A stretch of DNA of 64,000 nt from Methylobacterium tardum (GTDB lineage: Bacteria > Pseudomonadota > Alphaproteobacteria > Rhizobiales > Beijerinckiaceae), in NCBI RefSeq assembly GCF_023546765.1, contig NZ_CP097484.1, positions 1,429,501 through 1,493,500 of the forward strand, written 5' to 3'. The notes under the pieces were generated by a model. That model saw nothing but the letters and a program-made list of their open reading frames with translations. It had not been told where the DNA came from and searched no databases. Both the position numbers and the translations under genes were made by a program. Shown piece by piece: positions 35,393-38,385 of the stretch; the first letter of the stretch is position 1, and every line of letters begins with the position of its first letter.

Positions 35393-38385
35393 TCACCCAG
35401 GCTGATTGATCGGCATCTCGACACGGCAGCGCACGCCGTCCGCGCTCATCTCGTAGTCGACATCGGCCTCCAGAGCGTAGCCCAGGGCCTCCTGGATCAG
35501 CTCGGTCCCGTACCCCCGGCGCGTGACCTTGTCCGGCTTGATGGCGACGCCGCTCTCCACCCAGCTCAGTGCTAGCCGCCGGCGATCACGCCTATCGAGC
35601 AGCACCTCCCATGTGACGGCCAAACTGCCAGTGCCGTCCTTCAGCGCGCCATACTTCACGGCGTTGGTGGTCAGCTCATGCAGGGCGAGCGCAAAGTTCT
35701 GTACTTGTCGTGCGGTGAGTTGCACCTCCGGACCGCCGACGCACACCTTCTCCGATCCATCCTGAGCGTAGGCAGCGAGCTCGGCTCGGACCATAGCCCC
35801 GACCTCGACGGTATCGCTGCCGGCTTTGCTGAGAAGCGCTTGGGCGCGACTGAGCGCTTGCAGCCGCTCCTCAAACGACTCGACCGTACTACCCTGCCGC
35901 AGTGTTTTGCCCGCCACGGCAGTGACCACGCCAAGTAGGTTGCGGGAGCGGTGCTGCAGCTCGTTGATCAGCACCTCCAACCGCACCTGCATAGCACGCA
36001 GATCGTCGATGTCGGTTGAAGTGCCCAGCCACTCGACGATCGCCCCGGCTTCATCACGCACTGGCGTGGCCCGTGTCTGGAACCAGCGATAACGGTGCCC
36101 GGCTCGGCTGAGGATGCGGTATTCGACGTCGAACCCGTCCCGCTGGGCCGCCTGGCTCCACACTTCCCGTGCCGCAGGTCGATCATCAGGATGAAGCGGC
36201 TCAAGAGAGAGAGAGAGAGAGAGAGAGAGAGAGAGAGAGAGAGAGAGAGACCAGCCCCAGCGCCTACTGTCCGGCTCGCTCTGGCCGGTATACGCCGTCC
36301 ATTGTGGGCTGGCCCAGGTCCACTCGCCGCCTCTGGCCGCGCGCCACACGAGCTGCGGGATGCCCTCGGCGAGCGTGCGCTGCCAAGCCTCGGCTGCGGC
36401 CACCGATGCCTCGGCGCGGGCACGCACGAGATCGGCCCAAAGCCGCGCCGCAATCTCCTGCGCCAACGCGACCTCGTCGTCGGTCCAGCGGCGTGGTGTA
36501 TGCTGGTGAACGGACAGGTTCACCAGCAGCTTGCCGCCGATCAAGAGGGGAACGCTGAGCAGCGCCGATACCCCGAGTTCCGCAATGGCGGCGAGATCGG
36601 GGCGCGCGAGGGCCGGATCGTTCGTGTCTTCGATCCGCACGATCCGGCCCTCGCGGAGGTCGTCCAGGATCGGCCCCTCGTAGTCCTCCAGCCGCATCAC
36701 TGCCGGAAATGGCTGCGCGCCATCCGCGAACCACCCGAAGAAGATGTCGGCGATACCTTTCGCCTCGCCGAACTCGGCGAACATGATCCGCGAAGCGTTC
36801 AGCCGCTCGCCAAGCAGACGGGCTGCGATCTCGATAATGGCGTTTGGCGTAGACTGAGTACGCATGGCGTCGCCCAATGTGAGCAGGAACGCCTGCCGCT
36901 CCTCGCGTTCGCGTACAATTGCTTCAAGGCGGGTGCGCTGGAGCGCTACCCAGGTGCGTTCCGCTGCTCCTTTCAAGAGCCCCTTATCAACACGGCTCCA
37001 CGTGCGCACGCGGGTGTCGGCCGCCAGGAGAACAGCGGCTAGACGCCCGTTTCGCAGGAGCGGCGCGCCCAGCGCGGAGCGGATGCCGAGCTCGCCGTAA
37101 GTAGCCTTGGCCTCTGCGCTGAAGTGCTCCGAACCTGTCAGGTCCGGCATGTCGAGCACGGCACCTGAATGCACCAGATCGAGAAAGTCCCGCTCGCCTG
37201 ACAGATCATGGACGCCCACCATTGAGGGCACACCCTCACGGTGAAAATCGCGAAGCACGGTCGCGTGCGTCCCGCGCTCGTCAAACTCGTTGAAGTAGCA
37301 CCAGCCGACGTCGAGCCGCTCGGCAAGCAGCCGCGTAGCCTCCGCTTGGATCTCCGCAGGATCGGTCAACGACCCGAGCGCATCGCTGAGCTGCAGCTGG
37401 AACGCCTGTTGCTCCTCACTCTCGCGCAACGCTGCCTCTGCCCGCTTGCGCTCCGTGATGTTCTCGTAGAACACGCCGACACCATTCCTTCCGAATGGAG
37501 TGACGTTGATGCCGAACCAGCGATTCAAAGCCGGGATGAAGTTCTCGAAATGTGAGGGCTCGCCGGAGACGAAGACCTGCGAATAGGCATCTATCCAATA
37601 GCGCGCGTCCTCAGGCGGAAGCACCTCGCCGACTAAGCGGCCCAGGACCTGTTCGTCATGGAGTCCTGTCACGCGCGTGCTTGCTGGGTTTCGGGCTAGA
37701 TGGCGGAAATCTGTCAGGTTTCCTTCATCGTCGCGGACCGCCTCTAACGCGGCGAAGCCCTCAGCCATGCTTTCAAAGAGTTCGTGATAGCGGGCTTCGC
37801 TTTCGCGGAGAGCGTCTTCGGCACGCTTTCGGGCGTCGATATCAATATTTACCACAACCCACTTCTCAATGCGTCCTTCAGCCTTGAGTAGGGGGCGGCA
37901 CGTACGTTGGTCCAGCGCCACCCGCCGCTTGGCGAGCGGAGGCGAAACTCCGCGTCGACAACCGAATGAGAGGCCATCGCCTCCCGCCATTGCCGCTCGG
38001 CGAAGGCGCGGTCCTCCGGGTGGATCGCATCGAGCCAGCCGTAGCCGAGCCACTCGTCCACAGTCTGGCCGGTGTAGGCTCGCCAGCTTGGGCTGTCGGC
38101 GACGACGACGCCGGCGGCGTCCGTCTCCCACACCGCCTGGGTCCAGCTTTCGATGAGAAGGCGGTGGCGCGCCTCGCTCTCGCGCAGTAGCTCATCCACC
38201 CTTTGTTGCTCCGTGACCTCAACGCTTTCTATGCGACCATCTTCGACGGCAGGGCGGCCAAGCTCGCCAATTCGCTGGGAGGCCGCCTCGATGTCGGCCT
38301 TCTCCGACAAAGCCGCGTTCGCCGCCGCGAGGCGGCGTTCGAGGTCGGCGATGATCGTGCGCTCATCCATTCGTCGAGTGAGCAC
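35393..38385 (-). CDS. Multi-sensor HWE histidine kinase, frameshifted, with a GA dinucleotide tract in the coding sequence
   Basis: Start ATG 38385 (MLTRRMDERTIIADLERRLA). Order: short coiled coil; PAS (WETDAAGVVVADSPSWRAYT); one-base frameshift at a run of five G (37891-37895), after which TNVRAAP should continue as LLKAEGRIEKWVVVNIDIDA; PAS; two GAF domains; a PAS domain interrupted by a Ser-Leu repeat between GW and EPLHPDD; and an HWE kinase (INELQHRSRNLLGVV, ALHELTTNAVKYGALKDGTG, LSWVESGVAIKPDK). From the frameshift to the stop the frame is intact (about 830 residues). Soluble. The partner receiver is just downstream. The two shifts in repeat tracts suggest slippage; sequencing error is an alternative for the G run. 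Confidence 0.85.
36204..36250. repeat. (GA)23 dinucleotide microsatellite inside the kinase gene
   Basis: 47 bases of uninterrupted AG/GA on the plus strand, read on the coding strand as alternating TCT and CTC, giving eight Ser-Leu pairs in the loop of a PAS domain. Adding or removing one unit shifts the frame: one alternative meets TGA directly after the tract, the other stops at 35968-35970, just before the phospho-acceptor His. Both remove the kinase. Confidence 0.95.
37891..37895. repeat. Five-G homopolymer at the kinase frameshift
   Basis: The coding strand reads GCCGCCCCCTACTC. One more C would join the first PAS domain to the rest of the protein. Short for a true slippage tract, but it marks the exact frame break. 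Confidence 0.6.

Follow-up and report, generated by a model that had tools for sequence, protein, structure and literature searches.

The 47-nt CT/AG array that lies inside an HWE sensor kinase gene is probably a recent, private mutational accident and not an evolved contingency locus. It was analysed within a 64-kb window, the whole stretch of DNA under study, to which all coordinates without a prefix refer, and within the 6.94-Mb genome that holds this window (G000; Table 1). A near-identical allele of the kinase is tract-free and a second, longer array elsewhere in the genome breaks an aldolase gene, which together point to private mutation or a read artefact.

Table 1 Features of the window and of the genome (G000) to which it belongs
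Feature	Coordinates	Strand	Remarks
Stand-alone response regulator receiver protein	34955..35335	-	Downstream of the kinase
Sensor kinase ORF, PAS_4-GAF-GAF-PAS_3-HWE_HK	35393..38131	-	912 aa from first GTG
HWE-box His codon (ELQHRSR)	35951..35953	-	Residue 727 of the ORF
Stop reached if the array gains one unit or loses two	35968..35970	-	17 nt before the HWE-box His codon
(AG)23.5 / (CT)23.5 array	36204..36250	.	47 nt, 100% matches
ORF with the first PAS domain of the kinase	37849..38385	-	Other frame than the kinase
mutL, N part	G000:C1:61369-62301		Different frame from the C part
mutL, C part	G000:C1:62667-63047		Different frame from the N part
(AG)104 array in class II aldolase gene	G000:C1:6616606-6616813 (L009 5007-5214)		208 nt

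The kinase scores above the curated cut-offs for both HWE_HK (PF07536, 58.8 bits; cut-off 22.8) and PAS_3 (PF08447, 55 bits; cut-off 25.6) and is thus an HWE histidine kinase with a PAS sensor, the HWE-box His of which is taken to be the phospho-acceptor. The minus-strand coding of the array specifies eight Ser-Leu pairs (residues 628-643), located between GW and EPLHPDD inside the PAS_3 domain. Shuffling of the window with preservation of its dinucleotides never produced (AG)6 in 100 trials, against 18 overlapping matches in the observed sequence. The present length leaves the kinase in frame. Removal of one unit creates a stop at the end of the tract, the addition of one unit or loss of two leads to the stop ahead of the HWE-box His (Table 1), and changes of three units in either direction keep the frame. 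The first-pass annotation had noted that the tract is pure, encodes Ser-Leu pairs within a PAS domain and leaves the gene in frame, along with both one-unit effects; the frame reading confirmed all of these. Most changes in array length would remove the kinase core, with a predicted loss of the HWE domain. The array lies within an ORF, its unit size is not a multiple of three and its size is slippage-prone; as pure arrays of such size slip in other bacteria, the array, if real, would be expected to slip. AlphaFold modelling of residues 560-912 left a single reported stretch with a pLDDT below 50, residues 630-641 within the Ser-Leu repeat, and 27 of the 36 ten-residue blocks score at least 70 (mean pLDDT 77.9); the placing of the domains is uncertain since the pTM is 0.48 and 15 sequences were used.

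The kinase is one member of a redundant family and is already damaged upstream of the array. At least 18 matches, the kinase itself included, were obtained in G000 (16 of 154 candidates scored), and the closest other paralogue among the matches listed is 63% identical over query residues 459-797. An unbroken N-terminal sensor region is absent: one base seems to have been lost from a C run within 37882-37901, judging from the frames, which separates the first PAS domain from the remainder, and the homologue P0003 is continuous across the same part. Positions 33831-34476, on the downstream side of the kinase and response regulator genes, presumably contain pieces of an IS3-like transposase (orfA/orfB).

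A near-identical relative is P0001, a protein of 805 aa with 802 identities to the window kinase over 820 alignment columns. All of the 15 gaps in this alignment fall in one stretch, at the repeat, where P0001 reads SRRWGW-LEPLHPDD and the window kinase SRRWGW(SL)8EPLHPDD; the window kinase has 15 additional residues, or 45 nt. The PAS_3 profile is matched by P0001 over positions 4-88 with 65.1 bits and by the window kinase over positions 30-88 with 55 bits. P0001, which is known as a protein only and belongs to a cluster of two that may include the window protein, is not encoded by the letters of the window, and its contig is 6,922,803 bases long as compared to 6,894,209 for the chromosome contig studied here. 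Apart from the start residue, two substitutions are left between the two proteins, which suggests that P0001 comes from a sister strain and not from a second reading of the same DNA. It begins at residue 93 of the kinase ORF, just behind the frame break, a hint that its genome shares the upstream lesion. Because P0001 is near-identical yet tract-free, the 45-nt insertion is private to the strain or to the assembly.

The repeat is missing as well from the more distant P0003 (73% identity over 593 columns), which reads GWGWIEPLHPDD. A scan of 30 kinase loci for an insert in the motif GW...HP[DE]D revealed none in the 18 readable loci besides the window's own; the remaining 11 of the 29 other loci gave no match, and some of the matches represent a different PAS domain. 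The array is therefore absent from P0001, P0003 and the 18 readable loci among those 29. The comparison with orthologous PAS domains that had been proposed as a check thus speaks against a conserved switch, as P0001 and P0003 read straight through the site.

The second array, (AG)104, is situated in a class II aldolase gene, the two halves of which occupy different frames on either side of it. Of 30 aldolase loci, 25 could be read, four lacked the motif and one was the genome's own; a CT array was present in none of the 25 readable orthologues, 24 of which carry a single CT at the site and one of which carries TT. The net gain relative to CACCGGCTGAAGCC is 206 nt, so that the assembled aldolase gene is not in frame. 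P0154, a second aldolase protein of 99 aa, was set aside as too noisy: its first 76 residues are shared with the aldolase of G000, after which the frame is lost, and it terminates where a tract-free TGA would fall.

A search of G000 with (GA)10 gave 108 matches, 14 and 94 of which are expected from the lengths of the two arrays. As these arrays account for all matches, the genome contains no other AG run of at least 21 nt, and both arrays accordingly look saltatory. AG runs with an H start and at least five units were confined to the kinase and aldolase arrays, and AG arrays of intermediate length were not found in G000. A backward control with two matches suggests one further AG run of about 10 nt, and in a 504-kb sample of the genome no other dinucleotide run exceeds 12 nt.

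Long dinucleotide tracts had been called unusual for bacteria of this kind, and their rarity was borne out: an H-start AG tract of at least 10 units occurs in 4 of 111 genomes of the genus and in 11 of 397 genomes of the order, the present one being counted in both, and AC arrays, used as a control, occur in 2 of the 397. In G018, an assembly of about 120 contigs, an AG array is found at the facing ends of contigs C40 and C41 (L080, L081), and the sequences flanking it resemble opposite ends of what we take to be one TDT-type transporter. At this site the relative G107 reads CTCTCGCTCCTC; in G018, the array is also followed by a stop after a few codons. In G073, the array immediately precedes the start of a presumably PhzF-like gene; judged from frames alone, the arrays of G030 seem to lie between genes or close to the end of one. 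The named genome collection contains at least 120 stretches with an AG array of at least 47 nt. The longest among the matches listed was 114 nt as fetched, and 10 of the 57 listed arrays that lie at least 600 nt from a fetched end have an open frame of at least 60 codons on both sides. Many of the matches listed (L097-L216) are from bins of Bacteroidales, Tannerella and Prevotellaceae and from Dysgonomonas isolates. A 63-nt AG array with an open frame on either side was observed in Ensifer sp. Root278 (L127). Bacteria of different phyla are reported to avoid short repeats, whereas long repeats accompany host dependence (PMC4060949). Titles and opening lines of abstracts contained no case of such arrays or of phase variation in this group, although one may exist in print.

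The favoured explanation is that one of the numerous HWE kinase genes acquired a CT/AG array in its PAS_3 domain, after the Gly-Trp and before the Leu-Glu codons. The array would have added 15 Ser-Leu residues to a loop, the frame being kept by chance, and would be the same kind of accident as the 208-nt array that breaks the aldolase gene. The array is then presumed to exist in the DNA at about its assembled length, to slip, and to have arisen in one or a few large steps. Against this explanation, the insertion has an odd length of 45 nt, which slippage in 2-nt steps from the inferred GGCTGGCTTGAG could reach only together with another change. In addition, an in-frame state, expected by chance in one of three cases, also fits a switch caught in the ON position, and the assembly may be wrong at the array. 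A broader and rather doubtful proposal is that this lineage has a process which creates long pure CT/AG arrays at previously array-free sites, each in one step or a few. It would build on two changes: a lone CT became (CT)104 in the aldolase gene, and 23 units appeared in the kinase gene where there had been none. Ordinary slippage needs a longer seed, so that such a process, if true, would imply repair-linked or template-independent repeat synthesis.

It is possible, though unlikely, that the array or its length is a consensus artefact of long-read base calling or assembly and is absent from the DNA. The tract-free P0001 would agree with this, as would the frequency of candidate frameshifts. 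A frame-switch model requiring at least 120 nt on both sides gave 28 candidates in 503,759 nt of G000, a sample that takes in loci fetched for other purposes, and 4 in 400,000 nt of the relative G071; by this one model, which permits overlaps and weighs both strands and some candidates of which may be gene overlaps, G000 has five times more candidates. Without the length filter, the numbers were 39 and 14. The sign of a one-base loss was seen in 20 of the 28 candidates. Two-sided probing of nine places yielded four (dxs, a hydantoinase-like gene, a porin and a CusA/CzcA-like pump) in which the halves matched consecutive parts of one family. At L226, each half aligns with the beginning of a glycosyltransferase profile, which makes two genes the probable reading of this locus, and the candidate at window position 34317 is presumably the overlap of IS3-like orfA and orfB and no lesion. 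Two cruder frame scans disagree with the model, which makes the excess dependent on the method: one, which took overlapping genes for frameshifts, gave 48 in G000 versus 28 in G071, and the other, which added antisense shadows, showed no excess (84 versus 87).

Of 29 places (the 28 model candidates and mutL, which was flagged by the 48-versus-28 scan and not by the model), 8 had the sequence GCCGGC no more than 15 nt away, compared with 6% of random places. G/C runs of 6 are scarcer in G000 than in G071 (10.7 versus 18.2 per 100 kb), runs of 5 being about equally frequent. Both observations would suit an artefact. The GCCGGC context is partly produced by the base loss itself; it would favour systematic read error more than a mutator. 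Other observations speak against an artefact. The array is pure, and the contexts GGCTTGAG (26 times) and CCGGCTGAAG (8 times) are untouched elsewhere in the 503,759 nt, both strands included. AG arrays also exist in other genomes of the genus, including the one at the G018 contig ends, and in the collection at large. Considering the model's frameshift excess and the split mutL, the unit counts are in any case unreliable.

One of the two dxs copies of G000 is split over two frames (L238 near 12665, at about 5.5927 Mb of G000:C1) and, from its frame, would have lost a C from GCCCGGC. It was examined as proof of read error and rejected as such, as a second dxs is present with an open frame of 684 aa (G000:C1:4315943-4317823).

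In a further alternative, which is compatible with a private accident, a genuine frameshift in mutL would have abolished mismatch repair, so that the strain expands dinucleotide arrays and accumulates frameshifts. The mutL gene of G000 is in two frames (Table 1). Several relatives read CCGGGCCTCGT or alike where G000 reads CCGGCCTCGT, a G of a GGG run being missing (L220 near 2430, at about 62.3 kb); the split is either a real lesion or a read error. The open frame of mutS has 915 aa. An apparent division of mutL over two frames was also observed in the one-contig genome G013 of the same genus (G013:C1:6383952-6385642). The missing G and the excess of candidates found by the frame-switch model would be consistent with a mutator, but such an origin is improbable: G/C homopolymers are no longer than in G071, the other dinucleotide runs of the 504-kb sample stop at 12 nt, intermediate AG arrays are lacking, the common GCCGGC context is better suited to systematic read error, and a split mutL is not peculiar to G000.

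That selected slippage toggles the kinase in an evolved phase-variation switch, as the first-pass annotation had it, is very improbable: the present length is in frame and one unit more or less is not, and coding CT arrays do switch genes elsewhere, as is described for Helicobacter pylori oipA (PMC10564699), but P0001, P0003 and the readable paralogues are tract-free, the array lies away from the 5' end of a gene whose domains do not indicate a surface protein, the gene is redundant and broken upstream, and the companion array leaves the aldolase out of frame. Of the original proposal, the tract, its position within the PAS domain, its being in frame, the consequences of a one-unit change and the rarity are upheld; the evolved switch is unsupported. 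If real, the array would act like a switch, and it bears no sign of selection as one.

In conclusion, a private mutational accident is preferred, and caution is needed before a repeat by itself is taken to mark a contingency locus. Provided that the arrays are real, a strain whose allele is near-identical but tract-free would make it possible to study directly how a long bacterial microsatellite is born.

Among known systems, the closest in kind is oipA of H. pylori, a phase-variable gene with a CT repeat in which the gain or loss of a unit shifts the frame; the kinase likewise has a CT array in its coding strand, where a unit change is a frame shift (PMC10564699). The oipA array is at the 5' end of a gene for an outer membrane protein that is ON or OFF across many isolates, whereas the window array is internal, lies in a kinase gene and is absent from a near-identical allele. 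As in the contingency loci of Haemophilus influenzae, the repeat is within an ORF and a change in its length would frameshift the gene; the switching repeats of H. influenzae are foremost tetranucleotides and occur in several strains, while the window array is private (PMC2651432). The rare AG/CT microsatellites of the same order have the same unit and are 21-46 nt long as read, with the length in G018 cut by contig ends; they are located at other loci, and several of them look intergenic from their frames.
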